From: Agathobacter rectalis ATCC 33656
Lineage (GTDB): Bacteria; Bacillota; Clostridia; Lachnospirales; Lachnospiraceae
Length of the DNA: 64,000 nucleotides
Direction of reading: 5' to 3'
Assembly: GCF_000020605.1 (NCBI RefSeq)
Contig: NC_012781.1
Span: 2,729,501-2,793,500 of the forward strand
Shown: positions 1,019 to 23,445 of the stretch, one piece after another
How the letters are laid out: each line of letters opens with the position of its first letter
How positions within the stretch are numbered: position 1 is the stretch's first letter
Position numbers and translations under genes: made by a program
Notes under the pieces: generated by a model
Database searches by the model: none
What the model saw: only the letters and a program-made list of their open reading frames with translations
What the model was told of the DNA's origin: nothing

Positions 1019-1049
1019 ATTCTCCTTTAAAATAATAAACCTATAAAAT

Positions 1050-1117: not shown

Positions 1118-1118
1118 T

Positions 1119-7081: not shown

Positions 7082-7714
7082 TTAACTGAAATTTCTTATG
7101 TTTCCCAGCTCCATTTCATATACTTCATCACAAAGCAGCTCGATATCTGCGGGATTGTGGCTTGCCAGAAGTATGAGCTTTCCCTGCTTTTTAAGCTCCA
7201 TCAAAAGCTCACGTATATCAGCCACACCGTGTTTATCGAGTCCGTTCATCGGCTCATCCAGTATCAGTATGTCCGGCTGCTCCATGATTGCCTGTGCAAT
7301 CCCAAGGCGCTGCCTCATTCCAAGACTGTACTTGCGCACCCAAAGTCTGCTGTCCGGATCAAGTCCTGTTATCTTAAGAGCCTTACGTATCTGATCATCC
7401 GTAACCTTTCTGCGTATTCCGGCAAGCAGCCGTAGATTTTGCAGCCCGCTGTAATATGGTATAAATCCCGGTGTTTCAATGATTATTCCTGCATTTGGCA
7501 AATAATCCACATCTTTTCCCACACGCCTACCGTCTGTTTTTATCTCTCCCTCTGTCGGATGCACAAATCCGCAGATGCATTTCATCAGCATTGTTTTGCC
7601 GCTTCCGTTGCTGCCAACAAGTCCATAGATTTTCCCCGGTTCAAGTGTCAGCGAAATATTATTTAAAATTGATTTGCCATCCAGTCTTAGTGATACATTT
7701 CTTATTTCTATCAT
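7082..7714 (-). CDS. ABC transporter ATPase, cassette 1
   Basis: A 210-residue nucleotide-binding subunit of the bacitracin/lantibiotic-export type. It has Walker A GLVGSNGSGKTML, signature YSLGMRQRLGIAQAI, Walker B ILILDEP followed by MNGLDKHG, and H-loop LLASHNPADIE. Start 7714 was chosen over 7816 because MIEIRNVSL is the normal family N-terminus and a GGGGGA site precedes it. It is the last gene of lipoprotein-permease-permease-ATPase cassette 1, 11 bases after the permease stop. It would power the two integral membrane partners. Its C-terminus resembles the orphan ATPase tail at 16520-16654. Confidence 0.92.
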   Translation of the reverse strand: MIEIRNVSLRLDGKSILNNISLTLEPGKIYGLVGSNGSGKTMLMKCICGFVHPTEGEIKTDGRRVGKDVDYLPNAGIIIETPGFIPYYSGLQNLRLLAGIRRKVTDDQIRKALKITGLDPDSRLWVRKYSLGMRQRLGIAQAIMEQPDILILDEPMNGLDKHGVADIRELLMELKKQGKLILLASHNPADIELLCDEVYEMELGNIRNFS

Positions 7715-7725
7715 GCTCGGTCCCC

Positions 7726-8580
7726 CTATTCCTTTACCTGATAATGTCCTGCCCTTGCAAAGCAAAGCACAAGAAGCAGCGCACTTATGGCTCCCAGATA
7801 AAGATATGATCCCCACATCGGAAAATTCATCCTGTCAAGATATTCATCATAGTGCAGCCACGGTATCGTATGCGCCATCGGAAGTATCCACATCTGCTTC
7901 ATTCTGACCTCACAGGTGACTGCTCCGAGTATGATTGCAAAGCCATTTACGAGTATCCCCACATATCTGTGATTGCTGACAGCCGAAAAAAGCAGCACAT
8001 ATGATATGAGCAGAAAATATAAAAGCAGCAGACAGAATGTGTGTATAAGTGCCTGTTCAAGTGTCATCTGCTGATACAGATTTCCAGGAAGAAGCTGCAC
8101 CACATAATCTCCCGTCCTATCCGGATAAACTGATGTAAAATGTGTGACCGCATCAGAAAATGAAAGACTCCATCTGCCTGTCCCTATCATAAGAACGCAC
8201 GATGACACCAAAAGGAATAAAAGCACAAAACAGGATGCCGCTGCCGCAAAAACTGCCTGTCCAAATATCCATGTCCTCTTTGTACAGCGCATCTGATAAA
8301 ACCTGTCAATTCCCGTCCTCTGTGGAAAATCAGCCATCAGCACAAGAAAAAGTATAGGTATTATAAGAAGGATAACTCCCGAATTTCCCAAAGCCACAAA
8401 AGCCTCAGGTATAGAAAGCATTTCTCCCATAAGCATTTTGCACTGTCGAAGCGGCCCGATCACCTGCACATTCACAAATACGAGCATGACAAACAGTATG
8501 ATTATCCTGCTGCTGCGCAGCCACTGCCTGAATTCAGCTTGCGCAATGTGCACTGCTGCCCGAAACGAAAATCTATCCAT
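7726..8580 (-). CDS. ABC transporter permease, cassette 1 (second)
   Basis: A 284-residue integral membrane protein with about six hydrophobic segments, starting MDRFSFRAAVHIAQAEFRQWLRSS. A conserved-looking loop RFYQMRCTKRTWIFGQA corresponds to LFTLSRLGRKKWFCGQI in the cassette 3 permease, showing paralogy. AGGAGG lies 7 bases before the ATG. It overlaps the preceding permease by 8 bp, indicating translational coupling. No Pfam-level name is certain (ABC-2 type). It should form the membrane channel with its neighbour; the cargo is unknown. Confidence 0.82.
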   Translation of the reverse strand: MDRFSFRAAVHIAQAEFRQWLRSSRIIILFVMLVFVNVQVIGPLRQCKMLMGEMLSIPEAFVALGNSGVILLIIPILFLVLMADFPQRTGIDRFYQMRCTKRTWIFGQAVFAAAASCFVLLFLLVSSCVLMIGTGRWSLSFSDAVTHFTSVYPDRTGDYVVQLLPGNLYQQMTLEQALIHTFCLLLLYFLLISYVLLFSAVSNHRYVGILVNGFAIILGAVTCEVRMKQMWILPMAHTIPWLHYDEYLDRMNFPMWGSYLYLGAISALLLVLCFARAGHYQVKE

Positions 8581-9391
8581 CGCAATGCCTCCTTTTCACC
8601 TGTGCATAATACAGCAGAACAAGTATCACATAACAAACTATAGTAAGTCCTACCGTCCATACCCAGCCGCTCTCACCCGACACATTCATCAGATTTGATG
8701 AGTTAAACCTCTCCACTGCCGGGTTTTCAAGTGTAAGTCTCTGCAGAATCTGCGTGTATATGTAATTAAGTAGAAACGGAAGGCACAGCAGCATATACCG
8801 ATCCCTAAAAAATATTGCTGCTCCTATTCCAAACATACTTGCCGCCATACCATATAAGAAAGAACCTATAAGCCGTTTTACCACATATATGAGCACCATA
8901 CTGCCTGTTCCGTACCAGTCTGCATACATCATCTGCTCATTCACGGAAAATGATATATATGCCGGAAATGCAATAAGCATCATAAGTCCGAAAACAATGT
9001 TCGCTGTGATGAAAAGAATTCCACCTGTAAGCACTCCTGCTGTCACCTTTGTGGCACAATACTTTGCATTTTGCGACCTTATGAGCAAAAAACCTGTCAT
9101 GCCGTTGTGCCGTTCCGCGGAAAGCACTGCGATATATCCAAATGACATTAAAAGCGGCAGTATAAGCGGAAGCCAACCGTTCATCCCTTTTATCCACATA
9201 AAAAGTGCGCTGTATTCTATCGGCTGCTCACTTTTATGTGCAATGCCGGTTATGGCAAGCCTAAATACCGATACGGCACTGCCTGACGGATCATAATCCG
9301 CATTTGCGCTAAAAGCAAGTACAACACATCCTATGACCGCAAGAAGCAGATACGGAAAATACAGATATTTTTTCATTTCCGCCCTTATCAT
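8573..9391 (-). CDS. ABC transporter permease, cassette 1 (first)
   Basis: A 272-residue polytopic membrane protein; a segment such as GWLPLILPLLMSFGYIAVLS is followed by AERHNGMTGFLLIRSQNAKY, the cytoplasmic loop also found in the cassette 2 and 3 counterparts (FYFDVKSGYAAQIISRGKKSDY). ATG 9391 was chosen because GGGGAGG lies about 9 bases upstream and it starts two bases past the lipoprotein stop; the longer frame to 9445 would overlap that gene deeply. Function as a transport partner is inferred from the operon. Confidence 0.82.
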   Translation of the reverse strand: MIRAEMKKYLYFPYLLLAVIGCVVLAFSANADYDPSGSAVSVFRLAITGIAHKSEQPIEYSALFMWIKGMNGWLPLILPLLMSFGYIAVLSAERHNGMTGFLLIRSQNAKYCATKVTAGVLTGGILFITANIVFGLMMLIAFPAYISFSVNEQMMYADWYGTGSMVLIYVVKRLIGSFLYGMAASMFGIGAAIFFRDRYMLLCLPFLLNYIYTQILQRLTLENPAVERFNSSNLMNVSGESGWVWTVGLTIVCYVILVLLYYAQVKRRHCDG

Positions 9392-9392
9392 A

Positions 9393-10682
9393 CTAAGCCG
9401 CCTCCCCATAGGTATAGTAATAGACCTCTCCTGTAAATGCATCAAGATACATCCTGATATTTTCGTCCTTAGTCCTGTTTATTCCGTCAAACTGCCATGC
9501 CGGAAGATATATTTTGCACTCAGAACCATCTCCAAAATTAAGCGGTACATATGTAAGACATACACTTTGTACATCAACATTTAAAAACTTTGCCATCTTC
9601 CCGCTTAAAATATCTGCGGCATCCTTTATTCCCAATATCCCATCCGACGAATACAAATTTTCCAGCGGTTCCGAATCGTTAACTCCCGCATAAGCACTGA
9701 CTCCATCAGAATCCACTACATATGCATGTTTGATATCCTCTTCAAAATTATACTCATTTCCATATATCTGATAATTTCCATAATCATGATATGCTATTGG
9801 AACACCATGGTACTGCCTTTGAACCATATAATCATATCCGTACACCTGTCCGAGCTTGAACACGCGAACCTCCGGAACTGACAATGTAATGCCATCTGTG
9901 GGTACAAACGGAGTACCGTTTTCAAAATATTCCCCTGTAAGCTCTGCCCCCTGTTCAATGGTCAATTCACCATTTATAAGCTGATAGCTTTCTTTTCCAA
10001 GCTCGTCTATTGTCCCCGATTTTACAACATCATCTGTGTATGTTCCAAGAGCGTCACTGCTCGCATGCGCATCCGTATTCAGATATGCTCCTATCTTTCC
10101 ATCACTCATTGAATATATGCCATTATCCGCTATCTGTATATGACACTCATTCGTATTTACAAGTGCTCCTACTCCTGATGCAAGATCCATATGATCCTTA
10201 AGAGCCGGATAACTGTATGGTGTTTCCTTTGTATCATCCATTCCAAGGTCACTGTTTATGATCCTTACCTCCGAATCCATATCAGTTGTATCGAGCTTAC
10301 CGATTGATTCAAGCCAGTCCTTTATTGTATCCCAGCTCTCCTGTGTAGTAATGCCGTGTACTCCCCCCTCCATGACATACAACTCATTCGTTTCCGGCAT
10401 ATCTTTAAAAGTACAATTTGTAAACGATAAATTCCTGTAATCCTTGTTTTTTACCGCATCGGTATCTGTGCTATACTGTTCACAGCCTAGCTTATAATTC
10501 TCCCTGTTATCGGCAAGCTTTTTCTCATACGCAGCTATATCAATCCCCTGCTGCGTGTATGATTTATCCGCTGTATTCTTCTGCTGCGTATCTGCCGTTT
10601 TGCTGTCTGCACATGCAGACATGGTAAAAAATGCTGCAATGCAAAGGGCTGGTATTAGTACTGTTTTGTGATGTTTGTTCAT
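9393..10682 (-). CDS. Large lipoprotein, cassette 1
   Basis: A 429-residue secreted lipoprotein: signal MNKHHKTVLIPALC, lipobox TMSAC, then a polar Thr/Lys/Gln-rich linker. The body has no motif I can name firmly. Its end, MYLDAFTGEVYYYTYG, resembles the cassette 3 lipoprotein end (YDAYTGEEYRIQ) and recalls PepSY-like domains. A SAYAGVN stretch is shared with the small secreted protein at 20030. GGGGGAA precedes the ATG. As first full gene of cassette 1 it is likely an outer-face sensor or capture partner of the ABC permeases; that role is inference. Confidence 0.78.
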   Translation of the reverse strand: MNKHHKTVLIPALCIAAFFTMSACADSKTADTQQKNTADKSYTQQGIDIAAYEKKLADNRENYKLGCEQYSTDTDAVKNKDYRNLSFTNCTFKDMPETNELYVMEGGVHGITTQESWDTIKDWLESIGKLDTTDMDSEVRIINSDLGMDDTKETPYSYPALKDHMDLASGVGALVNTNECHIQIADNGIYSMSDGKIGAYLNTDAHASSDALGTYTDDVVKSGTIDELGKESYQLINGELTIEQGAELTGEYFENGTPFVPTDGITLSVPEVRVFKLGQVYGYDYMVQRQYHGVPIAYHDYGNYQIYGNEYNFEEDIKHAYVVDSDGVSAYAGVNDSEPLENLYSSDGILGIKDAADILSGKMAKFLNVDVQSVCLTYVPLNFGDGSECKIYLPAWQFDGINRTKDENIRMYLDAFTGEVYYYTYGEAA

Positions 10683-10710
10683 ATATAATTCCCCCATTTT
10701 GTAACACAAT

Positions 10711-10737
10711 TAGCCGGTATGGGAAACATACCGGCTA
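10711..10737. promoter_or_regulatory. Leader hairpin before cassette 1 lipoprotein
   Basis: A perfect 11-bp inverted repeat (10711-10721, 10727-10737; loop GGAAA) lies 28 bases before the lipoprotein ATG and 17 bases after a 15-codon frame. On the minus strand no T-run follows, so it is not a plain terminator for that strand. It may stabilise or attenuate the cassette 1 mRNA. Confidence 0.55.
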
Positions 10738-10754
10738 ACATATTTTTATCTTTT

Positions 10755-10802
10755 TTATACTACTTTATAAATCGTACCTTTTGCATTGCATCTTTTCCCC
10801 AT
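10755..10802 (-). CDS. Possible 15-residue leader peptide of cassette 1
   Basis: ATG at 10802 is preceded by AAAGGAG at a spacing of 6, better than many real genes here. The frame reads MGKRCNAKGTIYKVV and stops. It sits between promoter A and the hairpin/lipoprotein, in the place the small secreted protein holds in cassette 3. It may be a leader peptide, a signal peptide precursor or a decayed gene start. Nothing in the residues assigns a function; it contains one Cys and is basic. Confidence 0.35.
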   Translation of the reverse strand: MGKRCNAKGTIYKVV

Positions 10803-10840
10803 AGACTTCTCCTTTACTATACTATGTTTTAAGTTACTTA

Positions 10841-10860
10841 ATAACAATAATTATTGTTAT
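10841..10860. promoter_or_regulatory. Palindrome near transcription start, cassette 1
   Basis: A perfect 20-bp palindrome centred on AACAATAATTATTGTT lies 22-41 bases downstream of the -10 box of promoter A. The identical 16-bp core is at 20507-20522, at nearly the same place behind promoter B. It is a candidate operator or RNA hairpin. Confidence 0.6.
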
Positions 10861-10881
10861 TAGAAATCGATTACAATTTCA

Positions 10882-10909
10882 ATTATATTCATTTTCCCAT
10901 TTTTTTCAA
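10882..10909 (-). promoter_or_regulatory. Promoter A (cassette 1)
   Basis: TTGAAA (10909-10904), a 16-bp spacer, TATAAT (10887-10882) on the minus strand. The box sequences, spacer length and distance to the upstream direct repeat match promoter B at 20546-20573. Confidence 0.78.
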
Positions 10910-10926
10910 TACAATTTACATGAGAT

Positions 10927-10957
10927 GACATTTTTTATTCACTTTTGGTACATTTTA
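10927..10957 (-). promoter_or_regulatory. Direct-repeat operator A, probable LytTR regulator site
   Basis: Read on the + strand, ACATTTTT (10928) and ACATTTTA (10950) start 22 bp apart, two helical turns, the spacing typical of LytTR-family binding sites. The repeat lies 19 bp from the -35 box. Copies at 20591-20620 and 21294-21323 share the intervening TTTTGGT. Confidence 0.6.
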
Positions 10958-10981
10958 TATAGATCAATTAAAAATTAAAAA

Positions 10982-11566
10982 TCAGTTACAACACAACCTT
11001 ATCTTCTGCGGATAATACTGCAGCACCATATACAGCTTCATCTTATCTACCCTGCTCCAGTCTTTCTTTGATACCTGCTGCTCATCCATTATATACGGTA
11101 TCACAAAAGATACATCCTCACCGGCATTAAGCTTTATCTCCAAAGCTTCCAAAGTAGGATTTAATGCAAAAAACAGTTCCATGTCATACTGATCACCATT
11201 GGTTCCCATTTCAAATGCAAGGCTTGTAAGATCAAGTGATGTTGTATCGTCCTTTACTTTGGTAACTGACAAGGTTATAAAACCCACACGCACACTGTCG
11301 AAAGGATATTCTGAACCATCATCCGTCTGATCATATGCATAATCAGGACATTTTTCTTTTAGGAGACTGCCATCGCCCCACTCCCATCCGGTCTGCTTTA
11401 TCTCATAATTTCCAAGCTTTATAGTGTCATTGTCTGTATATGTGATGACCTTTGGGGATGGATAGCAATGATTCAGATAAACAATCCTTGCCAAAACAGC
11501 AATCATCACAATTCCTATGAGCATTCCCGAAAAAAGCCTTACTTGTTTTGATTTTCTTTGCTTCAT
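10982..11566 (-). CDS. Membrane-anchored extracytoplasmic protein, cassette 2
   Basis: A 194-residue protein with a basic N-terminus and one membrane helix (about residues 12-32), then an extracytoplasmic domain with ITYTDNDTIKLGNYEIKQTGWEW and SLDLTSLAFEMGTN. The strand-rich look and spacing resemble DUF5028/DUF4352-type accessory proteins; this is tentative. AGGAG precedes the ATG and it follows the cassette 2 ATPase by 15 bases, so it closes that operon. It is a distant match in style to the 237-residue lipoprotein that opens cassette 2. Role unknown. Confidence 0.75.
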   Translation of the reverse strand: MKQRKSKQVRLFSGMLIGIVMIAVLARIVYLNHCYPSPKVITYTDNDTIKLGNYEIKQTGWEWGDGSLLKEKCPDYAYDQTDDGSEYPFDSVRVGFITLSVTKVKDDTTSLDLTSLAFEMGTNGDQYDMELFFALNPTLEALEIKLNAGEDVSFVIPYIMDEQQVSKKDWSRVDKMKLYMVLQYYPQKIRLCCN

Positions 11567-11581
11567 AATAAATTCTCCTCG

Positions 11582-12208: not shown

Positions 12209-12216
12209 AAAATACC

Positions 12217-13029
12217 TCACAAAATATTCTTTCTGTTAAAATACACACTTCCGGACACAATAGAAACCACCATCACAATAATGCAGCTTATTATTCCGGC
12301 AGCCGCATCCATTCCGCCCGCACAGAGCCTGTTGTTTCTGATGATCATAAGATAATTGCCCATAAGAAACGGACTCACCCAGTAAACAGACACCACAAGA
12401 TAAACTATTGAAACAATATATCCAGCGATCGCACCGGCAAAAATACTGATAGTAAGCTGCACCACCGCAATTGTACAGGCGCATAACATTGGCAGTATCA
12501 GCCATACAATCACTTCATTTCCGGTCGAAAACCGCTGCATATCTATTCCCATTTCCATGAGCATATCATCAGGCTTTGTGCTCCACTTCCCGATTGCACA
12601 TGTCACAGCCGCAAGAACAAGTATCATTGCAGCATAATACATAATCACATTTATGAGCGTCCATATGTACTTACTCCATAACCACTTAAACCTGCTGCCA
12701 GACAATATCAGTGTCTTTTTGCCTGCACCATACAGATCTGACAATGGATAAAATCCTACCATAAAAAATAAAAACGCATAAAACAAAAACCACGACACCG
12801 GAATGGTAAATACGCTGTCATCTGTCTTTATGTATGGCGGCATACCCTGAAGTATATTTGTAAAGTATGCCAAAAATCCAAGCTCCGGTGAATTTACACT
12901 AAAATCACTGACGGTGATAAATGAAAAAAATACAAATATGAATACTCCGACTATCCATTTTATCTTGTTTTCCCTAAATCCTTTTCTGATATCATATAAG
13001 ATCAGATTTGCAAAAATTCTCCTATTCAT
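12217..13029 (-). CDS. ABC transporter permease, cassette 2 (second)
   Basis: A 270-residue membrane protein with about six hydrophobic segments. It carries the cytoplasmic loop YGAGKKTLILSGSRFKWLWSKY, equivalent to loops of the cassette 1 and 3 second permeases. ATG 13029 overlaps the stop of the upstream permease (ATGAATAG), so translation is coupled. It should pair with the upstream permease and the ATPase; cargo unknown. Confidence 0.82.
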   Translation of the reverse strand: MNRRIFANLILYDIRKGFRENKIKWIVGVFIFVFFSFITVSDFSVNSPELGFLAYFTNILQGMPPYIKTDDSVFTIPVSWFLFYAFLFFMVGFYPLSDLYGAGKKTLILSGSRFKWLWSKYIWTLINVIMYYAAMILVLAAVTCAIGKWSTKPDDMLMEMGIDMQRFSTGNEVIVWLILPMLCACTIAVVQLTISIFAGAIAGYIVSIVYLVVSVYWVSPFLMGNYLMIIRNNRLCAGGMDAAAGIISCIIVMVVSIVSGSVYFNRKNIL

Positions 13030-13834
13030 AAGCAACAAGCTCTTTCTTTACCGCATGTATGTAAAATATAATATTTACCACTATAAGGATAATAAACGCA
13101 CAGATCACAACCCGGATATCATTTCTAAACGGTGCACTTGGTCTAAGAAACATTACCGGTGATAAACTCACCCTGTTTACAAAATGAACCATGCAGAACA
13201 CAAATATGTATATGATAAACGGTGTCAGCAGGATCCAGAACCGGCTTCTTACAAAATTAACAGCCCACAACACCGCACAGTTTAAAAGTCCCCAGAAGCA
13301 GCCATCAATCAGCACAAAAATCAGATTGTATACAAGTGGATGTGTATAAAATACCCCTGACATGATATCCATTGCCGCTACCGGGAATGTGCCTGTTCCT
13401 ACCTGTGGTATTACCATCGGAAATACCATTGCAGTAAGCATAAAGTCAAACACCAGTGGTATCATTCCAATAAGCGCACCGCTTACAAATGCAGCTCCAT
13501 ATTTTGCTCTTATATAATCGCTCTTCTTTCCTCTTGATATGATCTGGGCAGCATACCCTGATTTAACATCAAAATAAAAGCTTCTGCCATACGGTATGGC
13601 ACACAAAGCAGGCATTATCAGATAAAGCAGCAACGGCTGCACACTTGCATTATCCGCACCTATCCATTTCTCATATGCAGACAATGGATACGTGTCGTAG
13701 TAAACATACATCCTCCATATCCACACATTTTCCATAAAATGCCATACACATATTGCAAACGCAACACACAATGTGGCAGCAAATAATCTATTTCTAAAAG
13801 CACGTTTTATTTCGAGTTTAAATATTCTATTCAT
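13022..13834 (-). CDS. ABC transporter permease, cassette 2 (first)
   Basis: A 270-residue polytopic membrane protein starting MNRIFKLEIKRAFRNRLF, with PYGRSFYFDVKSGYAAQIIS then RGKKSDYIRAKY, a loop found in the paralogues (QDLQSGYIKFIIAKTKKKDYIKAEL in pieces in cassette 3). GGAG lies 8 bases before the ATG, 2 bases after the lipoprotein stop. ABC-2-like permease by context. Confidence 0.82.
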   Translation of the reverse strand: MNRIFKLEIKRAFRNRLFAATLCVAFAICVWHFMENVWIWRMYVYYDTYPLSAYEKWIGADNASVQPLLLYLIMPALCAIPYGRSFYFDVKSGYAAQIISRGKKSDYIRAKYGAAFVSGALIGMIPLVFDFMLTAMVFPMVIPQVGTGTFPVAAMDIMSGVFYTHPLVYNLIFVLIDGCFWGLLNCAVLWAVNFVRSRFWILLTPFIIYIFVFCMVHFVNRVSLSPVMFLRPSAPFRNDIRVVICAFIILIVVNIIFYIHAVKKELVAYE

Positions 13835-13836
13835 AA

Positions 13837-14550
13837 CTACAGCTCCAGTTTAAAATATTTTTGTACCTTATCATTGGTTTTTGAATCTATACCCTCTATA
13901 CAATAATAAATATACTTAGAGTCTTCTGACATCCATTCATCCTGAATAATATATCCAAGCTCTGATGTAATACACTCGCCTTTGCCTAAAACATAATGAT
14001 ATACATCACTTTCATCTCCTCCAAGCCAATAGTTGTCTATATATACACAATCTGAGTTTTCCTGTATTCTCTCCATATCATCCTTGATGGCATACAGAAC
14101 ACCCACATTTCTATTACCTTCAATCTGCTTATCATCTCCATCCTTATAAGTGATTGTCAACGTTATAAAAAGATAACTATAGCCATTGCTCAGGTTATAA
14201 TTTTCATCTATATTTCCTTCACAGCTATCTTTCAAAAAATCTGCAACAGTATCCTTATTTCTGTTTCCAAACTCCGTTGTATGCTCGTACTTTTCAATTT
14301 TATAAGTAATTCCATTTATCTCAATTGTATCATCAACTGACACGATATCGTCTTTGTTAACATACTCCGCATCCTGCACATACGTAGCCGGAGCCTGGTC
14401 TACTACACCGGTGTCACCTTCTGTCTTTGAAGCCTCATCCTTTACAATACCGGATTTTCCCTCTAGCTTGGCATTTGATTGTGAGCAGGCTGAAAGCCCC
14501 GCTGCCATCATAATCACTGCCATTATTGCTGTAATTTTCTTTTTCTTCAT
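13837..14550 (-). CDS. Lipoprotein, first gene of cassette 2
   Basis: A 237-residue lipoprotein with signal MKKKKITAIMAVIMMAAG and lipobox LSAC. The mature part has INGITYKIEKYEHTTEFGNRN and SYLFITLTITYKDGDD, a beta-sandwich style like DUF5028/DUF4352 accessory proteins (tentative). It differs from the larger lipoproteins of cassettes 1 and 3. AAGGAG precedes the ATG. It heads the operon lipoprotein-permease-permease-ATPase-anchored protein. Role inferred as extracellular sensor or accessory. Confidence 0.8.
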   Translation of the reverse strand: MKKKKITAIMAVIMMAAGLSACSQSNAKLEGKSGIVKDEASKTEGDTGVVDQAPATYVQDAEYVNKDDIVSVDDTIEINGITYKIEKYEHTTEFGNRNKDTVADFLKDSCEGNIDENYNLSNGYSYLFITLTITYKDGDDKQIEGNRNVGVLYAIKDDMERIQENSDCVYIDNYWLGGDESDVYHYVLGKGECITSELGYIIQDEWMSEDSKYIYYCIEGIDSKTNDKVQKYFKLEL

Positions 14551-14631
14551 AGTTTCTTCTCCTTGATTGATTGCTGATGTTTAATTGTTATGATAATTAT
14601 AAACCTGTGATGTGTCATAGTTGTAAAATAA

Positions 14632-14670
14632 AAAAATCCATTGCAATTTTAATTATTGCAATGGATTTTT
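14632..14670. terminator. Bidirectional hairpin terminator
   Basis: Arms 14632-14647 and 14655-14670 are a perfect 16-bp inverted repeat with A/T flanks, lying 54 bases beyond the stop of the AAA/nuclease gene at 14724. A decayed similar sequence follows the membrane protein gene at about 20641-20680. Confidence 0.8.
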
Positions 14671-14723
14671 GTCACGACTTTACTATCAACCTATTTATCA
14701 GAATATCTTTTTATTAAGTCTAT

Positions 14724-16442: not shown

Positions 16443-16459
16443 CAAAGCCTCCATAAAAA

Positions 16460-16495
16460 AATCCGCTATAACTGTTAATCATAGTATAGCGGATT
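16460..16495. repeat. Palindromic repeat, AATCCGCTATA type, copy 2
   Basis: Arms 16460-16470 and 16485-16495 form an 11-bp perfect inverted repeat; the outer core is shared with 5211-5249. It lies in the short gap upstream of the AAA/nuclease gene and downstream of the ATPase fragment. Confidence 0.65.
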
Positions 16496-16519
16496 ATTTT
16501 ATAAAATACAATAATTGTG

Positions 16520-16654
16520 TTATTGGGATAATTTACTTCTTTGGCTAACAATTGTCTCTGCATCTAATTCATAGACGCAATCACATAATAAATCTATATC
16601 TAATGGATTATGACTTGCAAGAAGAATAAGTTTTCCTTCTAGTATTTTATTCAT
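16520..16654 (-). pseudogene. Orphan C-terminal fragment of an ABC ATPase
   Basis: In frame from ATG 16654 (overlapping the TGA of the cassette 3 ATPase) the minus strand reads MNKILEGKLILLASHNPLDI then DLLCDCVYELDAETIV, which is the H-loop and tail of an ABC ATPase. It matches the cassette 1 ATPase tail (GKLILLASHNPADIELLCDE) better than the intact neighbour (GKTIIMASHSSEDIDILCDE). No Walker or signature motifs remain. It is best read as the remnant of a further paralogous cassette lost by recombination. Confidence 0.85.
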
Positions 16655-17292
16655 TCTCTCACTATCTTTCCAGCCTCCATCTCATATACCTCATCGCATA
16701 AAATATCTATATCCTCAGAAGAATGAGATGCCATAATAATGGTTTTACCTTCATCTTTCATCTGTAATAATAAACTGCGCATTTCAGTAACACCTTTTTT
16801 GTCCAACCCATTAAAAGGTTCATCTAAAACTAAAATATCAGGATTTTCCATTATTGCCTGCGCAATCCCAAGTCGTTGTCTCATTCCAAGTGAATACTTT
16901 CCGACAGCTTTTTTGTCCTCTGGATTTAACCCTACTCGTCTTATAGCATTCTTTATATCATCATTTGTGATTTTTTTATTTAAATCAGCAAGAAATTTCA
17001 AATTCCAATATGCCGAATAGTCTTTTAGGAATCCAGGTGTTTCAATTATCAATCCTACATTTTTAGGCATGTCCACATCTTTGCCAATTACTTTATCTAA
17101 AACTGTTATTTCTCCCGAATCTAATAATATGAATCCACATATGCTTTTAAATAAGACTGTTTTTCCACTGCCATTTCTACCTATTATTCCATATATTCTT
17201 CCTTTATATATTTCAAGTGAAACATCATTCAGTACAACCTGCTCACCAAATTTTTTATAAGCATTTTTTATAGATATTACCAATTCATTCAT
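16651..17292 (-). CDS. ABC transporter ATPase, cassette 3
   Basis: A 213-residue nucleotide-binding subunit: Walker A GIIGRNGSGKTVLFK, signature YSLGMRQRLGIAQAI, Walker B ILVLDEPFNGLDKKG, H-loop IIMASHSSED. ATG 17292 shares its A with the TGA of the upstream permease (TGATG), so the two are coupled; GGAG lies about 8 bases upstream. Last intact gene of cassette 3, followed immediately by the fragment of another ATPase. Confidence 0.92.
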   Translation of the reverse strand: MNELVISIKNAYKKFGEQVVLNDVSLEIYKGRIYGIIGRNGSGKTVLFKSICGFILLDSGEITVLDKVIGKDVDMPKNVGLIIETPGFLKDYSAYWNLKFLADLNKKITNDDIKNAIRRVGLNPEDKKAVGKYSLGMRQRLGIAQAIMENPDILVLDEPFNGLDKKGVTEMRSLLLQMKDEGKTIIMASHSSEDIDILCDEVYEMEAGKIVRE

Positions 17293-18110
17293 CAAATCAT
17301 CTCCAATACATTCAATGTACACTTTTTACCTTTTTTCAAAATATATGTAATTAATATAATAATTACAAGTATTTCAACCGTAACAATATATATAATTGAT
17401 ATCGGATTACTTTTCCTCATAAATATGAATATATTTGTCCAATGAATTACAGACATATACTGAAACTTATAAAGCCAGAACACGTCTATAAGATTCGAAA
17501 ATACAATCATCGCTGCCGCTATAGAAGCCCCAAATATTCTATTATTTCCCAAATTTGCAGCAAAAATTATTAGCCCAACAATAAAACCGGCTGATACATT
17601 TAATAAAAATGTTATTAAACATGCTATTATTGGTGAAAAATATATAACCGCTTCTTCATGCAATACAACACCTGCAAGTGCAGGATTATGAGATAGATTA
17701 ATCCAAATATCTCCCCATTTTGCCGAGGGCGCAACCCATGGAATAAATACAATAATGCTTACAAAAAACATCCATGCAAAATATATGACATTTGCTAACA
17801 AAATATATAATATTTGACCACAAAACCATTTTTTTCTGCCTAATCTGGAAAGTGTAAATAATTGGTGTTCATCAATAAATGGTGCATTACATAACAAAAG
17901 GATTATCCCAAAATAAAATAACATTCGTGTTATTGAATCATCCATTTGAAATGTAAAAAAAAATGGTGTAACTGAGAGTCCTTTTAACGCTGCATAGTTT
18001 TTTATACTATCACTTCTTATGTACGTAAAAACTGCTACAGCCAAAAACGCAATATATACCCTGTAATTATTGCGCCATTTTCTAATATTACACCACATAC
18101 TTCTAAACAT
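17292..18110 (-). CDS. ABC transporter permease, cassette 3 (second)
   Basis: A 272-residue membrane protein with about six hydrophobic segments, starting MFRSMWCNIRKWRNNYRVYI. The loop LFTLSRLGRKKWFCGQI parallels the cassette 1 second permease. It overlaps the first permease by 8 bp. Hydrophobic, Ile-rich and AT-rich in codon use, like the rest of cassette 3. ABC-2-like by context. Confidence 0.82.
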   Translation of the reverse strand: MFRSMWCNIRKWRNNYRVYIAFLAVAVFTYIRSDSIKNYAALKGLSVTPFFFTFQMDDSITRMLFYFGIILLLCNAPFIDEHQLFTLSRLGRKKWFCGQILYILLANVIYFAWMFFVSIIVFIPWVAPSAKWGDIWINLSHNPALAGVVLHEEAVIYFSPIIACLITFLLNVSAGFIVGLIIFAANLGNNRIFGASIAAAMIVFSNLIDVFWLYKFQYMSVIHWTNIFIFMRKSNPISIIYIVTVEILVIIILITYILKKGKKCTLNVLEMI

Positions 18111-18858
18111 TTTGTATTCTCCTTTTCATCTTCCAATAACACAATTTATACATAATAAAAACAATGCAACCAGAATAGCATATCGCGTAAAGCCAATGAT
18201 ATAACATATTATCAAATATATGTGTAAATGCGAAATACACACAGGATGGTAATAAATATATATTACTACACCATTTATTCAACAGAGTCATAACCATATA
18301 CAAAATCAAAATCGGAGCTGCCGTCCCGACAAATATATTAGGAATAAAAATTGTAACTGTAACCGCAAGACAGGATAAAGTTCCACATAACAATGAAAAG
18401 ATTAATCCTGTCCAAACATTTTCTGTAAAATATGCCCAATCTCCAATAATACCATTTCGTGGCATATAACCAAGTATAATAAGTGAAAATATAATTAACA
18501 CTCCAAAAACTATAATTGATAGCAAAGCACTAATACTTCCCCAAATAAATGCCGAAATCAACTCTGCTTTTATATAGTCTTTTTTTTTCGTCTTTGCAAT
18601 TATGAATTTTATATATCCGCTTTGCAAATCCTGGCACAGGTTTAGTCCTCCGCCAAATACACTTAAAATATAATACAAAATAATAAAGCCTGATGAGATG
18701 CTAACAGCTACTATATCATTAAATGATGCGCTCTCTTTCTGTTGTATGATTGCTCCCAGCCCATTTATATATAAAGCTGCAATCATTCCAATAATGCATA
18801 AATATGATTTTTTGCTGTGAAAACTTCTAGACATGCACATTTTCAAATCTATTATCAT
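18103..18858 (-). CDS. ABC transporter permease, cassette 3 (first)
   Basis: A 251-residue membrane protein (MIIDLKMCMSRSFHSKKSYL...), with the loop LCQDLQSGYIKFIIAKTKKK that corresponds to FYFDVKSGYAAQIIS in cassette 2. It begins 4 bp inside the lipoprotein stop (overlap 18855-18858), so translation is coupled. Role as membrane partner of the ATPase is inferred from order. Confidence 0.82.
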   Translation of the reverse strand: MIIDLKMCMSRSFHSKKSYLCIIGMIAALYINGLGAIIQQKESASFNDIVAVSISSGFIILYYILSVFGGGLNLCQDLQSGYIKFIIAKTKKKDYIKAELISAFIWGSISALLSIIVFGVLIIFSLIILGYMPRNGIIGDWAYFTENVWTGLIFSLLCGTLSCLAVTVTIFIPNIFVGTAAPILILYMVMTLLNKWCSNIYLLPSCVYFAFTHIFDNMLYHWLYAICYSGCIVFIMYKLCYWKMKRRIQNV

Positions 18859-20000
18859 TGTATTCTATATTCCTCCCCTGTATATGCGTCATATACATCA
18901 TAAAGAGCCATTTTTTGCGTATAACTGTTTTCTCCTGTCACCAATTGGTTTTGATAGTAGTAAACCACCCAAACAGGCTTAATATCATAAGTTTCATTTT
19001 TATCTGCAAACAACATATATTCTAATGATATTTCGCTTACCTCAATATCCCCGGATGTTACGTATTTTTTTAGTTTATCAACCTCTTTTGAAAGTATAGA
19101 CGATGGATGTAATATCTCACCAGTCTCAGTTGTCTCGACCCAATCATACAATGGTGGAATATCTAAAAACGAAATTCCCTTTTCATCCATAGCTATTACC
19201 AAATGATTTTCTTGATTTGCATAACCCGTTAACGCTTCATTTTCAGGGCATCTGCTATATGGAATACCATACACGTCCGGAAACATAAAAAATACATATG
19301 TATCATTTTGTTTATCTGTATCATCCTCTGGAAATATTAATGTATTTTTGTCATCAAGAACGTATAATTCATTTTTTTCACAAACATTAATTTCAAGTTC
19401 TTTCGCTGTTTTAACCGCTAATTCTTCCGCCTCTTCGGCAGACATAAACATTAGTTGTTTGTCAGTTCTAAACTTATCTTTATCATTAAACGGTGAGTAA
19501 TATGTGCCAAATTTAGACGCACTAACAGCAAGCTTTCCGTCATGCGTCTCGGCTAAAGCTGAATCATTTCTGATTGCTATGCTATCCTGAGTATAATTGT
19601 TATCCCATAAATAAATCTCATTACCATTCTCCGATCTGTGGCTTTGTACACATACATCCTTATTTAGATTAATCGCTTTTGCTAATTTTTCCATCAGATC
19701 ATAGCATTTATCCTTATTTTCCGAAAAATTAATAGCCTTAACTTTTCCACTTTTAACGTAATAACTTGTTGCATCCCAGATATTAATTTCTGAATCAATG
19801 TTCAGCTTATCATTTACAACGCATTTTATATTTTGTGGAAGTTTTCCTATCTGTTCTTCGTCCAAAGAATTTAGCACATTTTCATAATCATTTAAGTCTG
19901 TGGTATTAGCTTGTGTACCATCATCTATTACGTTTTCAGTTGGTGCACAACTAACAAGTGAAAAACATAGTATAAGTATTATATAGCAGATTTTCTTCAT
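18855..20000 (-). CDS. Large lipoprotein, cassette 3
   Basis: A 381-residue lipoprotein: signal MKKICYIILILCFSL, lipobox LVSC. The body contains LMFMSAEEAEELAVKTAKEL, a PepSY-like helix style, and ends YDVYDAYTGEEYRIQ, similar to the cassette 1 lipoprotein end (YLDAFTGEVYYY). I infer the two are paralogues that capture or sense a ligand outside the cell. It starts 29 bases after the small secreted protein stop and probably shares promoter B. Confidence 0.78.
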   Translation of the reverse strand: MKKICYIILILCFSLVSCAPTENVIDDGTQANTTDLNDYENVLNSLDEEQIGKLPQNIKCVVNDKLNIDSEINIWDATSYYVKSGKVKAINFSENKDKCYDLMEKLAKAINLNKDVCVQSHRSENGNEIYLWDNNYTQDSIAIRNDSALAETHDGKLAVSASKFGTYYSPFNDKDKFRTDKQLMFMSAEEAEELAVKTAKELEINVCEKNELYVLDDKNTLIFPEDDTDKQNDTYVFFMFPDVYGIPYSRCPENEALTGYANQENHLVIAMDEKGISFLDIPPLYDWVETTETGEILHPSSILSKEVDKLKKYVTSGDIEVSEISLEYMLFADKNETYDIKPVWVVYYYQNQLVTGENSYTQKMALYDVYDAYTGEEYRIQ

Positions 20001-20029
20001 TAAATCACCCCATTGAATGTTAATACATT

Positions 20030-20409
20030 TTACGGATTCCAGTAACCTGAGACTGTAACGGTCACGCCACCATTAGAAGATGGATTATATCCATATAGCT
20101 TAATCCTATCATCCTTATATACAGTAGATGTATATATAACCTGTGTACCCCCAATTCCTCTCACTGAATTATAATTAGAAACAAAGCCTTTTCCCTGCTT
20201 ATAGGCTTTAAATTTTATTGTTGCCGAAGGATAAGATAAAGATGTTACATTTACCCCAGCATATGCACTATCTCCATTTTTTCGTACATAACTAGTGTTT
20301 TTTACATTTTCCGTCATAAGCGAAAAATTGTAAGATTGAGCCATAACAACTGTAACAGAAAACATAGTACCTATTGCTAGTGTTGAAAAAAAGTTTTTAA
20401 TTTTCTCAT
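20030..20409 (-). pseudogene. Small secreted beta-rich protein, reading frame broken at a seven-T run
   Basis: AAGGAG lies 7 bases before ATG 20409, which opens MRKLKTFFQH and stops. In the -1 frame the sequence continues as FSTLAIGTMFSVTVVMA then QSYNFSL..., a normal signal peptide with cleavage after VMA and a mature chain of about 100 residues without cysteine, rich in beta-type segments and ending GVTVTVSGYWNP. The frames meet at ACTTTTTTTC (T run at about 20386-20392). No ATG/GTG/TTG with a ribosome site serves the long frame alone. Possibilities are a disrupted gene, phase variation, slippage, or a sequencing error. It leads the cassette 3 operon behind promoter B; a secreted signal or toxin role is only a guess. 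Confidence 0.7.
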
Positions 20410-20506
20410 TGATTTTCTCCTTTTGATATTAATTACTCAAAATTCCCATATCTAAATAGATTTTTTGTAATTAGAAATTTAAGTGTTTCAAGTTTACAAG
20501 TTACAT

Positions 20507-20522
20507 AACAATAATTATTGTT
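20507..20522. promoter_or_regulatory. Palindrome near transcription start, cassette 3
   Basis: AACAATAATTATTGTT, a perfect 16-bp palindrome identical to the core at 10843-10858 and similarly placed behind the -10 box. Confidence 0.6.
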
Positions 20523-20545
20523 GCTTGAAGTCAATGACAATTTCT

Positions 20546-20573
20546 ATTATCATCATTTTCGTTATTTTTTCAA
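20546..20573 (-). promoter_or_regulatory. Promoter B (small secreted protein and cassette 3)
   Basis: TTGAAA (20573-20568), 16 bp, GATAAT (20551-20546) on the minus strand; same boxes and spacing as promoter A. Confidence 0.78.
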
Positions 20574-20590
20574 TACTATTTACACGAAGC

Positions 20591-20620
20591 AACATTTTTA
20601 TGTCCTTTTTGGTCGATTTC
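20591..20620 (-). promoter_or_regulatory. Direct-repeat operator B, probable LytTR regulator site
   Basis: ACATTTTT at 20592 and CGATTTC at 20614 are 22 bp apart, with TTTTTGGT between; the distance to the -35 box is 19 bp, the same as in operator A. Confidence 0.6.
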
Positions 20621-20673
20621 ACTGCCCAAAATAACCTCTTTACAATTTTAATTATTGCAACAGATTTTTGTCG

Positions 20674-21195
20674 TTATTTTACCCCCCACTGACAAACGAA
20701 TGAAAATACTACTGTTCCTATAAAACAAACCAACCATATACTTCTTAGTACTTTGTTTTCTTTATAATTCTCCGAACATGGAACCAGCCATTGATCTTGC
20801 CGATATTTCAAAATATGTTCCTCCAAAGGTTTGTATTCTTTTACTATTATGCTCCACATCAACGCAGTAATATTGACTACCACTGAACTATAATAAACAA
20901 TCGGTGAGTTTGTCTTATCATAAAAGAAGTAATATGCCATTTTCCACATAAATATAAACCATACACAAGATGCAATAATTGTAAATGTACTATCCATTTT
21001 CCACTTCAAACCAAACAGTACCAAAGGTAAAAAAGCTAAGATTACAGCTATCGGTAATCCTGCCGCCTTTCCATGTCTGACACCTGATTCCAAATGCCAT
21101 ATTCCCGATAAAAGAACTACAAACGGAATAAGTATCGTTAAATAAATATTCCAAATTAATATTATATTTCTACTTCCACAATGTCTCATTTTCAT
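20674..21195 (-). CDS. Small integral membrane protein, unknown
   Basis: A 173-residue protein with about five hydrophobic segments (IWNIYLTILIPFVVLLSGIW, LPIAVILAFLPLVLFGL, FTIIASCVWFIFMW and others) and a polar stretch near residues 120-150. I do not recognise a family. It lies upstream of the small secreted protein and is divergent from the LytTR regulator, with direct-repeat operator C in between. AAGGAT precedes the ATG. Its position suggests an immunity, processing or sensing role for the secreted protein; this is inference only. Confidence 0.7.
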   Translation of the reverse strand: MKMRHCGSRNIILIWNIYLTILIPFVVLLSGIWHLESGVRHGKAAGLPIAVILAFLPLVLFGLKWKMDSTFTIIASCVWFIFMWKMAYYFFYDKTNSPIVYYSSVVVNITALMWSIIVKEYKPLEEHILKYRQDQWLVPCSENYKENKVLRSIWLVCFIGTVVFSFVCQWGVK

Positions 21196-21293
21196 AATAA
21201 TATCCTTATCTTTCAGCCACTTTTATCTGCCATACTTTTCTTGTAATAAGAATACATCCTAATATATTGCAAATCCACGATTTGGAATAGAAC

Positions 21294-21323
21294 AACATTT
21301 TTCGGGCACTTTTGGTCAATTTA
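21294..21323. promoter_or_regulatory. Direct-repeat operator C, probable LytTR regulator site
   Basis: ACATTTTT at 21295 and CAATTTA at 21317 are 22 bp apart with ACTTTTGGT between, the same layout as operators A and B. It lies in the divergent region between the membrane protein gene and the regulator gene, so it may serve autoregulation. Confidence 0.6.
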
Positions 21324-21367
21324 TGATATCCAAAACCACCCGTTTTTTGTCTTTTCACGTCTTTTTC

Positions 21368-21396
21368 TTGCCTTACTCTGCGTACTTCTCTATAAT
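21368..21396 (+). promoter_or_regulatory. Promoter of the LytTR regulator/kinase operon
   Basis: TTGCCT (21368-21373), 17 bp, TATAAT (21391-21396), then TAGGAG and ATG 21428. Confidence 0.6.
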
Positions 21397-21427
21397 AATT
21401 TTAATTAGATTTTATAGGAGATCTTCA

Positions 21428-22135
21428 ATGAAAATACTTATTTGTGACGATGATTCATCTATCACGCAGTCACTATCCCTGATAATCAAAACATATTTCA
21501 ACAAAAAGAAAGTAAATAATCTCGATATTGTAACCTTTAATGATGGGGACAGCCTTCTTTCTGATAAATCCCAAAAAGATATCATCTTTTTGGATATAGA
21601 AATGCCCGGTTTTGACGGCATCTATGTGGGAAATGAACTAAAAAAGCAGAATGACTCCGTTATTATTTTTATAGTGACATCTTACCTCGAATATCTGGAT
21701 GCCGCCATGAGATTCCATGTATTCAGATACTTATCTAAGCCAATAGATAAACAACGGTTATTCCAAAATTTAGATGATGCACTTGAGCTATACTATTCTA
21801 TCAATCAAAAAATCGCAGTTGAAACAAAATATGGTGTTACGTCTGTTTTGACTTGCGATATCGTATATGTGGAGGCAAAGGGGAGAAAGGTTATAGTACA
21901 TACTGCCACGGCTGATTTGGACTCCACTCAGACACTTCAATTTTGGATAGAGCATCTGCCGCAGGCTACCTTTTTTCAGTCACACCGTAGCTATATCGTA
22001 AATATGGCTATGGTAACAAGCTTTGATCACGAGCTGATATACCTTTGTGATGGTCAGTTCACCGCATATTTAACAAGAAGAAAATTCACCGAATTTAAGA
22101 GAGCATATTTGATGTTTATGGAAAGTAAGAGGTAA
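21428..22135 (+). CDS. LytTR-family response regulator
   Basis: A 235-residue regulator. The receiver domain (about 1-120) has the acidic pocket LICDDDSS, the phosphoacceptor region IIFLDIEMPGFDG and the conserved Lys in YLSKPID. The C-terminal LytTR DNA-binding domain has VYVEAKGRKVIVHT and FFQSHRSYIVNMAMV, the typical HRSYIVN element. Start 21428 has TAGGAG 7 bases upstream; the longer frame to 21323 lacks a site. It is followed 5 bases later by its kinase. AgrA/ComE-like proteins bind direct repeats with about 21-22 bp spacing, as found in three places in this island. Confidence 0.94.
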   Translation: MKILICDDDSSITQSLSLIIKTYFNKKKVNNLDIVTFNDGDSLLSDKSQKDIIFLDIEMPGFDGIYVGNELKKQNDSVIIFIVTSYLEYLDAAMRFHVFRYLSKPIDKQRLFQNLDDALELYYSINQKIAVETKYGVTSVLTCDIVYVEAKGRKVIVHTATADLDSTQTLQFWIEHLPQATFFQSHRSYIVNMAMVTSFDHELIYLCDGQFTAYLTRRKFTEFKRAYLMFMESKR

Positions 22136-22140
22136 TACTT

Positions 22141-23445
22141 ATGAGTGCTGCTGTTTGTTATTTTTTAGTATATTTTGCTGAGGCGTTAATACTGTTGCAA
22201 TATTCATCTAATGTTTTTGAATACAAAATTTCTTCGATAAAACGATATATATTACTTACAGTACTATTTATCCCAATATATTTTATTTCATTCGCTCATA
22301 TCGGTTTATTAAATACTGCTTTATTTTTTGTTGCTACTTATGTTTTTTTAAAAATTTCAACCATGGAAAATAGTGCAACTCTCTTTTTCCATTCTGCCGT
22401 TATGATTGTAATTATGACTTTGTGTGAGCTTGCTTCTATGGGAGTTTTCTCAAAGTTTTCATATCATTTTTATTCTAACATGAATGATACCGTTTTGCTT
22501 TATTCAGTTAGTTTTTTAAGCAAATTACTTTACTTTGTAATCATATATTTCATATCACATAAGCTATCCAGCACCAGATCCAATATACGATTTTCCATCT
22601 ATGAAATCACTACATTGGCTATAATACCTGTTATTTCCGTATTTGTAATCTACACAATGATATATTTTCTTATGAATTATGAAATAAAATCTCCACTCAA
22701 CTATCTGCTCATCCTTAGCAGCTTTTTCATGCTGCTTATAAACATACTCATCTTTGGTCTGTTTGAACATATTAAGCAAAAAAATTCCGAAATAGCAGAG
22801 CTCACACTTCAGAACCAGCGTGATGCCGACTCTGTAGAATACTACAAAGCCCTCGTGTCACAGGATGAGAAACAAAAAGTTCTCATTCATGACATCAAAA
22901 AGCATCTCAATGCCATAGCCTCGCTGAACGAACAGCACGATTCTGAAAAAATCGCAGCATACCTTACCCACGTACTCGGTTCTTCTGAGTTAAAGCACTC
23001 CGTGCGGGTATGCGATAATGACCTTTTAAACGCACTGCTCTGCCGTTACCAGAAAATATGTCTTACGAAAAAGATTGCGCTGCATATTGATATAAGAAGT
23101 AAGTGTATTGATTTCGTGACATATGATGATCTCAGTGTACTTTTCGGTAATCTCATGGATAATGCTGTAGAATCAGCCGAAAAAACAGTTAATCCTTTTA
23201 TAGAACTCAATGTTTTTCATAAAGAGAACAATAACATGACCATTATCACGCTCATTGATTCCTGCCGCGTAAATCCTATTGATAAAAATGGCAACCTTTT
23301 ACCAACTAAAAAACCGAATCCACAGTTTCATGGATTCGGTATGCGTAGTATAGAAAATATTGTTAAGAAGTATAATGGTGAAATGACTTTTTACTTTGAT
23401 GATCCTACCAAGACATTCCATACGATTATTATGCTTCGGCACTGA
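22141..23445 (+). CDS. AgrC-like GHKL sensor histidine kinase
   Basis: A 434-residue kinase. About six membrane helices fill residues 1-210, the polytopic peptide-sensor style of AgrC/ComD. The phosphoacceptor region is LIHDIKKHLNAI; the ATPase part has FGNLMDNAVESAEK (N box) and HGFGMRSIENIVKKYNG (G box). It would phosphorylate the adjacent LytTR regulator. No AgrB/AgrD-like pair is visible in the window, so the ligand is unknown; the secreted protein at 20030 or the leader frame at 10755 are candidates worth testing. Confidence 0.93.
   Translation: MSAAVCYFLVYFAEALILLQYSSNVFEYKISSIKRYILLTVLFIPIYFISFAHIGLLNTALFFVATYVFLKISTMENSATLFFHSAVMIVIMTLCELASMGVFSKFSYHFYSNMNDTVLLYSVSFLSKLLYFVIIYFISHKLSSTRSNIRFSIYEITTLAIIPVISVFVIYTMIYFLMNYEIKSPLNYLLILSSFFMLLINILIFGLFEHIKQKNSEIAELTLQNQRDADSVEYYKALVSQDEKQKVLIHDIKKHLNAIASLNEQHDSEKIAAYLTHVLGSSELKHSVRVCDNDLLNALLCRYQKICLTKKIALHIDIRSKCIDFVTYDDLSVLFGNLMDNAVESAEKTVNPFIELNVFHKENNNMTIITLIDSCRVNPIDKNGNLLPTKKPNPQFHGFGMRSIENIVKKYNGEMTFYFDDPTKTFHTIIMLRH

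Follow-up and report, generated by a model that had tools for sequence, protein, structure and literature searches.

A putative agr-type locus lacking AgrB and AgrD in Agathobacter rectalis ATCC 33656, with three lipoprotein-transporter cassettes and an apparently frameshifted gene for a small secreted protein

In the lactococcin 972 system, a small Sec-secreted beta protein is encoded beside an ATP-binding cassette (ABC) transporter. LanI lipoproteins and LanFEG transporters confer self-immunity on bacteriocin producers, and unlinked LanFEG sets give resistance, as described in the available portions of PMC4239024 and PMC5786555. In Streptococcus mutans, the LytTR systems described in the available portion of PMC6193735 use two 9-bp direct-repeat half-sites placed 12 bp apart and close before the -35 element, the distance to which is 4-11 bp in S. 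mutans and often 10 bp in other species. Here we compare with these systems a 64,000-nucleotide stretch of A. rectalis ATCC 33656 (NC_012781.1, positions 2,729,501 to 2,793,500; the window), in which three lipoprotein-permease-permease-ATPase cassettes and a small secreted protein gene lie next to a LytTR regulator and a GHKL kinase. A. rectalis is among the commonest human gut bacteria.

The open reading frame (ORF) list and the translations gave a minus-strand run of cassette 3, an AAA/PDDEXK gene, cassette 2 and cassette 1. To the right of the cassettes are a membrane protein of 173 amino acids (aa) and then the regulator and the kinase on the plus strand. The original prediction, made from the sequence alone, had listed a LytTR/GHKL pair, the three cassettes and two small proteins, one beta-rich and one in the membrane, and all of them were found in their places (Table 1). 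When the 20 window proteins encoded between 7082 and 26767 were scanned against Pfam and NCBIfam, only the ATPases, the LytTR and receiver domains, the GHKL domain and two AAA genes scored above the Pfam cut-off. We give close to an even chance to the reading that this is a polymorphic locus of agr type that governs a secreted antagonistic protein together with self-protection of the LanI/LanFEG kind; an antimicrobial role of the locus is what we infer.

A 115-nt promoter repeat precedes both cassette 1 and the small protein/cassette 3 unit, and its two copies are 77% identical. Read in gene direction, the operator consists of ACCAAAA and two further bases, 12 bp and a second 9-mer of the form T...T; TTGAAA follows 10 bp further on, as the -35 element, in the promoters of cassette 1, the small protein and the small protein of a sibling locus on the same chromosome (L060). 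A 28-nt operator pattern, written from the window's own sites, matched three sites in the window against none in 100 shuffles. Its 22-nt core was exact at only three places in the 3.45-Mb genome, all in the window. With two mismatches allowed, seven further sites appeared, two of them in the sibling locus before the small protein and before the LytTR gene, and a reversed control likewise totalled 10 hits. The composite of operator and -35 element with up to three mismatches occurred at five places genome-wide and nowhere in the reversed control, with no mismatch before cassette 1 and the small protein, one before the sibling small protein and three at two other places. That cassette 1 and the small protein/cassette 3 unit have one operator in common is well supported. 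The pattern searches of the window and the genome found no operator before cassette 2.

A looser footprint pattern, written after the window and sibling sites were known, was applied to 14 related loci (numbered here with the letter L). It gave 23 hits against about 3.5 expected from shuffles (0.05-0.5 per locus), the shuffles being single-base, so that A/T runs are understated, and one L078 site being counted twice, once per strand. Such forms precede corresponding genes in five other genomes. They stood 67-142 nt 5' of a small secreted gene in L060, L173, L180 and L184, before two lipoproteins in L078, before the LytTR gene in L060, L173 and L174, and in L178 at the contig end, after AgrB. 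Another preceded the gene at the small-protein place of L176, which by eye is peptidoglycan-binding-like.

The window contains both an AgrC-like polytopic GHKL kinase and an AgrA-like LytTR regulator. The phospho-acceptor Asp of the regulator lies in IIFLDI and the H-box of the kinase is IHDIKKHL, with His at residue 250. The regulator is 58.7% identical to that of the sibling locus and 73-75% to that of L173; for the kinase these values are 39% and 70%. As the original prediction stated, the AgrB/AgrD pair is missing: PF04647 finds five AgrB genes in the genome and none in the window, and no AgrD-like frame was seen by eye in the intergenic stretches of the window that were examined. The sibling locus encodes an AgrD-like peptide, AgrB, a small protein, a lipoprotein, permeases and an ATPase, a gene set that is divergent from its own LytTR/GHKL pair. 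In other genomes, AgrB adjoins the pair or lies one gene away in nine of the 12 loci around the closest kinases, and contig ends are close by in two of the three loci without it. AgrD-like peptides were recognized by eye in L060, L071, L175, L176, L178 and L180. Because AgrB stands beside the pair in the sibling and in 9/12 loci, the window is, on sequence comparison, an AgrC/AgrA-like set and hence an agr locus without AgrBD. Elsewhere in the genome, L061 (823000-842999) has an AgrB gene with a LytTR/GHKL pair next to it, in a cluster that also includes ABC genes, several lipoproteins and a remote lipoprotein relative.

Each cassette combines, in one operon, one ATPase with two distinct ABC-2-like permeases, and a lipobox protein read from the translations is encoded with the transporter in all three. 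A crude hydropathy count gave five or six hydrophobic segments for each permease. TIGR03740 was the best NCBIfam match of all three ATPases. An E-loop, with Glu in place of the Q-loop Gln, is a feature of LanFEG-type ATPases; Glu occupies this position in 101 of 102 module-type ATPases (Asp in the other), including all three of the window, whereas 32 other ABC ATPases have 18 Gln, two Glu and 12 other residues or gaps. As the profile that separated the two classes was made from the module ATPases, the classes are not fully independent of the E-loop feature. The likeness to lantibiotic ABC systems that had been claimed for the ATPases thus holds, the kind being that of lantibiotic protection, and so does the claimed absence of a lantibiotic synthetase, as neither synthetase nor precursor was matched among the 20 proteins scanned. 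The description of the cassettes as paralogous fits the ATPases, which are 45-54% identical among the three, but the permeases and lipoproteins are far less alike: the first permeases (A) are weakly similar (E 3e-9 to 1e-4), the second ones (B) have no detectable similarity across cassettes (E 0.09 or worse), lipoproteins 1 and 3 are remotely alike (E 0.003), and lipoprotein 2 is not detectably related to lipoprotein 1 (E 0.62).

The predicted small secreted protein has a beta-rich body, and its relatives carry intact forms with a clear start and signal peptide. In the window, the first in-frame start codon of the body (20365) comes too late for a whole signal peptide, while the likely ATG (20409-20407), which has a ribosome-binding site, opens another frame that ends soon after a homopolymer T run at which the two frames meet. 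Since start codon and body lie in different frames, the gene looks frameshifted, and the prediction needs correcting on this point; the cause may be an error in the sequence, natural on/off switching or decay.

The lipoprotein of cassette 3 is EUBREC_2869, and its residues 25-381 are identical to the PDB chain 5coz_A (Eubacterium rectale ATCC 33656), a solved structure of unexplained function with a YycI/YycH/YpeB-like fold. The structural similarity to YycH, YycI and YpeB (PepSY-type) extends over most of the protein, with a root-mean-square deviation (rmsd) of 5.4-6.0 Å for YycH/YycI and a sequence identity of 8-13% in the aligned parts. YycI, YycH and YpeB are among the listed structural matches, and NisI and SpaI are not. 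In the literature consulted, mostly titles and abstract openings, we found nothing on EUBREC_2869, DUF6034 or this gene combination.

The lipoprotein-permease-permease-ATPase order recurs in Bacillota, in records of Lachnospiraceae, Oscillospiraceae, Clostridium, Bacillus and Paenibacillus. These records came from the best 80 of at least 575 matches of an ATPase-alignment profile searched against genome contigs, a sample biased to cassette-3-type ATPases in which five of the 80 had no module-type ATPase labelled; the same kind of search of genome contigs with lipoprotein 1 gave no match. A lipoprotein profile (A1) matched at least 36 of 397 genomes of the family at E 1e-6, a lower bound because at most four candidates per genome were scored. 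A small secreted protein stood directly 5' of the lipoprotein in 23/78 modules (12/54 plus 11/24), compared with 11/350 background genes (Fisher 3e-11). Eleven of these 23 small proteins end in G-x-W/F-x-P, a count made without the motif, although the small-protein alignment (A4) had been chosen partly by eye for it. A LytTR+GHKL pair lay within nine genes of 16/67 plus 7/22 modules, where about 7% would be expected given 13 LytTR domains and an assumed total of roughly 3,300 genes for the window's genome. Conserved synteny, proposed as a check, was therefore found for the small protein, the lipoprotein, the two permeases and the ATPase. The view that known parallels leave the set unexplained as a whole did not hold, in that the set is not a one-off: the module recurs, and relatives have AgrB beside it. 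In ten relatives (L017, L064, L079, L080, L106, L113, L115, L133, L138 and L144) the gene just 5' of the lipoprotein, in the same orientation, encodes a GHKL kinase, which suggests a kinase-lipoprotein partnership.

Comparison with the genome G014, which carries L173, placed the edge of a divergent island within the 3' end of the kinase gene: DNA identity is 56-79% before and 97-100% after about 23,300-23,400. Right of the kinase, G014 has the same toxin-antitoxin-like pair and 239-aa gene, 97-99% identical to those of the window. The cargo inside differs, with an HTH (helix-turn-helix) gene, AgrB, a small protein and, at the contig end, a cassette-2-type lipoprotein, and the G014 promoter matches both window promoters at 83-85%. 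A divergent locus beside a near-identical flank is what allele exchange would leave. As for other carriers, a megablast search for plasmids matching the locus and a tblastn search with the lipoprotein both came back empty, and a profile search of viral contigs gave no relative of the small protein. One record filed as a bacteriophage (L185; MT839208.1, 4483 nt, unverified, from human faeces) holds a complete small protein-lipoprotein-permease-permease-ATPase module. We rejected it as a phage-borne module since its five gene lengths and protein starts equal those of L018, and took it as probably a stray bacterial contig.

Table 1. Positions, strands and supporting evidence of the features of the locus.
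Feature	Positions	Strand	Basis
Cassette 1 ATPase, E-loop	7082-7816	-	TIGR03740 best match 2.9e-51, below cut-off
Cassette 1 permease B	7726-8580	-	ORF and hydropathy
Cassette 1 permease A	8573-9445	-	ORF and hydropathy
Cassette 1 lipoprotein, lipobox MSAC	9393-10709 (true start about 10682)	-	Translation
Cassette 1 operator and promoter	10841-10955	-	
One-transmembrane protein of 194 aa, last gene of cassette 2	10982-11566	-	ORF and hydropathy
Cassette 2 ATPase, E-loop	11582-12220	-	TIGR03740 best match 5.2e-53, below cut-off
Cassette 2 permease B	12217-13038	-	ORF and hydropathy
Cassette 2 permease A	13022-13834	-	ORF and hydropathy
Cassette 2 lipoprotein, lipobox LSAC, weak DUF5027 similarity	13837-14550	-	PF16430 0.0018, below cut-off
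Remnant (44 aa) of a fourth cassette-type ATPase C-terminus	16520-16654	-	Directly after cassette 3 ATPase stop
Cassette 3 ATPase, E-loop	16651-17322 (true start about 17292)	-	TIGR03740 best match 5.4e-53, below cut-off
Cassette 3 permease B	17292-18110	-	ORF and hydropathy
Cassette 3 permease A	18103-18858	-	ORF and hydropathy
Cassette 3 lipoprotein EUBREC_2869, lipobox LVSC	18855-20000	-	Crystal structure 5COZ
Small secreted beta-rich protein, open frame, C-terminal GYWNP	20030-20428	-	Apparent frameshift
Small secreted protein/cassette 3 operator and promoter	20505-20619	-	
Membrane protein of 173 aa, four hydrophobic segments, no family match	20674-21195	-	ORF, Pfam, hydropathy
Third operator copy, 5' of the 173-aa gene	21293-21322	-	Weak -35 at expected place
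LytTR response regulator, AgrA-type	21428-22135 (ORF listed from 21323)	+	LytTR 1.9e-17, Response_reg 6.4e-16 (Pfam)
Polytopic GHKL sensor kinase, AgrC-type	22141-23445	+	PF14501 5.7e-20, six hydrophobic segments
Edge of divergent island versus G014	23291-23391		100-column identity windows

Other features of the cassette array were also examined. Over 30 aa, the remnant after cassette 3 has 70% identity with the end of ATPase 1, which speaks for duplication and loss. A relative of the 194-aa protein occurs at the equivalent place in L175 (28% over 107 aa, E 9e-11). The AAA/PDDEXK gene (14724-16454, minus strand) separates cassette 2 from cassette 3 and so splits the array; it and a second AAA-ATPase_like/PDDEXK_9 gene (25187-26767, plus strand) are about 27% identical. 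In the conserved flank of the divergent island, the PIN-like/antitoxin-like pair, recognized by eye, lies at 24238-24871 (minus strand). Further right, the alignment with G014 jumps from 25067 to about 39758; the roughly 14.7 kb in between is missing from G014 or located elsewhere in it. Group II intron RNA domains surround an ORF (1119-2513) that is reverse transcriptase/maturase-like by eye (1048-2869, minus strand), and a TwoAYGGAY RNA motif (Rfam RF01731, 150 bits) was found at 51641-51811 (minus strand).

If the locus is a polymorphic agr-type locus for an antagonist and its immunity, the phosphorylated LytTR protein would bind the operator and activate the promoters of cassette 1 and of the small protein/cassette 3 unit. 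The small Sec-type beta protein would be the secreted antagonist, a role that has moderate support. With similar support, the anchored PepSY-fold lipoprotein would act outside the membrane, binding this protein or related ones from other strains, and clearance from the membrane would fall to the E-loop ABC transporter, in the way that lantibiotics are handled by LanI and LanFEG. Cassettes 1 and 2, which come without a small protein, might be immunity genes against other variants. The kinase, having no AgrBD beside it, may answer an outside cue, perhaps the peptide of another strain or of the sibling locus. Given the apparent frameshift, the strain could be an immune non-producer.

Several observations weigh against this reading. 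All three ATPases score under the TIGR03740 cut-off (174.3, 180.0 and 179.9 versus 309.75 bits). The fold model of the small protein is weak: AlphaFold gave an all-beta structure with a mean confidence (pLDDT) of 63.5, and the other four models had 38-49. The Pfam profiles matched the small protein to no known bacteriocin family; at E values up to 5, a set of 13 small proteins hit 11 families in all, and lactococcin 972 was not one of them. In its fold the lipoprotein is like regulators of kinases and propeptides of proteases, which suits sensing no less than immunity. By the rule used, 55/78 modules have no small secreted neighbour, so that the transporter must have a use without it. Likewise, 66/89 modules have no LytTR+GHKL pair within nine genes; the original prediction had named cassettes occurring apart from the regulator, together with unchanged expression on its removal, as evidence against itself, and modules do occur apart from it, so that the link, although enriched, is not obligatory. 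The looser operator pattern gave no promoter site in L175, L177, L179, L181, L182 and L183, and about half of its 23 hits are at other places. The operator itself raises two further points, the inverted orientation of its half-sites and a small HTH gene as possible binder, which are taken up below.

The modules without a small protein, together with the apparently frameshifted gene in this strain, would also be expected of a resistance locus of the Cpr kind, in which antimicrobial peptides made by the host or by competitors are sensed and removed through the kinase, the lipoproteins and the transporters, the small protein being an accessory, for example a decoy. According to the available portion of PMC5786555, CprABC, a relative of LanFEG, belongs to a non-producer and comes with a two-component system and a lipoprotein nearby, and by eye several of our modules stand behind OmpR/HisKA-like pairs. 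We nevertheless consider this explanation unlikely, because relatives of the kinase stand beside AgrB (9/12), suggesting self-made peptide signals, and because the operator lies directly 5' of small secreted genes in several loci, an arrangement that pure resistance need not have.

The operator was first read as LytTR direct repeats. This was dropped, since over 14 sites the half-sites match at 3-8 of nine positions when inverted and at 0-3 of nine when direct, the inverted form being clearest in relatives as ACCAAA...TTTGGT. Only spacing, place and recurrence therefore speak for LytTR as binder. Many dimeric HTH proteins have inverted half-sites, and 8/14 related loci, including the sibling, contain a small HTH gene. 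The same locus might thus be governed by a small HTH protein, acting in the window in trans from the sibling. We think this rather improbable: no HTH gene was found in the fetched stretch of the window, L078, L174, L178 and L184, all of which have operator forms; no operator was found in L175, L179, L181 and L183, which have the HTH gene; and the place directly before the -35 element suggests an activator. We favour the LytTR protein as the presumed binder. The predicted tie of cassettes 1 and 3 to the regulator through shared operators hence stands for the operator, which is common to both and recurs near related LytTR/GHKL pairs, and is presumptive for the binding by LytTR.

Besides resistance to outside peptides, the other main rival is a signalling device, which the fold of the lipoprotein would also suit and in which the lipoprotein sets the activity of the kinase as YycH/YycI do for WalK, the small protein is the signal and the transporter clears or presents it. 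This seems improbable, as the likeness to YycH/YycI is one of fold only, at the rmsd given above, the kinases are of different types (GHKL versus WalK), and only 25/89 modules have a GHKL kinase within nine genes. PepSY proteins can serve as propeptide chaperones, which would fit a beta-sandwich protein of the surface or matrix that has its own dedicated folding lipoprotein and a transporter for lipids or peptides, but such an envelope or adhesion role is very doubtful, since LanFEG-type E-loop ATPases and multiplied cassettes fit immunity better.

Beyond the antagonist and immunity reading of this one locus, we propose tentatively, at somewhat below even chances, an undescribed and widespread competition system of Bacillota. 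It would comprise diverse Sec-secreted beta-sandwich proteins, each with a PepSY-fold lipoprotein and an E-loop transporter, which in gut Lachnospiraceae would often be under agr-type signalling and swapped as polymorphic alleles; this strain would have kept sensing and immunity without the signal and the weapon. If right, the antagonist and immunity reading would give a function and partners to 5COZ, solved but unexplained. It would also predict, with an exact operator, which genes an agr-type locus of gut Lachnospiraceae targets, and would add, as a new class, antagonistic proteins that are unmodified and have matching immunity genes.

In comparison with known systems, the locus resembles LanI with LanFEG or CprABC (as described in the available portions of PMC4239024 and PMC5786555) in its lipoprotein, its single ATPase with two different permeases of about six helices, the E-loop ATPase of the TIGR03740 neighbourhood and two-component control. 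It differs in that the 20 window proteins include no lantibiotic synthetase or precursor, that the neighbour is an unmodified-looking Sec-type beta protein, that the lipoprotein fold is YycI/YpeB-like and that the ATPases are below the family cut-off. The likeness to YycH/YycI and YpeB is that of the lipoprotein fold, whereas the genetic context is unrelated and the identity in the aligned parts low. Like the S. mutans LytTR systems (available portion of PMC6193735), the window has two 9-bp half-sites separated by 12 bp and ending 10 bp short of the -35 element, and the S. mutans type of regulator goes with bacteriocin genes and, in some species, with genes for ABC transporters; their half-sites are, however, direct and those of the window inverted, and they use a membrane inhibitor instead of a GHKL kinase. 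A small Sec-secreted beta protein adjoining an ABC transporter recalls lactococcin 972, but the small proteins have no match to its profile and the transporter is of a different type. With agr (AgrBDCA), the locus shares an AgrC-like GHKL kinase with an HDxxxH box, an AgrA-like LytTR regulator, an operator before the -35 element and, in sibling and related loci, AgrB and AgrD-like peptides. Unlike agr, the window has no AgrB/AgrD, its operator is an inverted repeat, and what it seems to control is a small secreted protein with lipoprotein/ABC cassettes. We do not class the locus as agr because AgrBD are missing, as LanFEG because of the cut-off and the lack of lantibiotic genes among those scanned, or as lactococcin 972 because of the lack of a match; it probably works like an agr-controlled bacteriocin locus.

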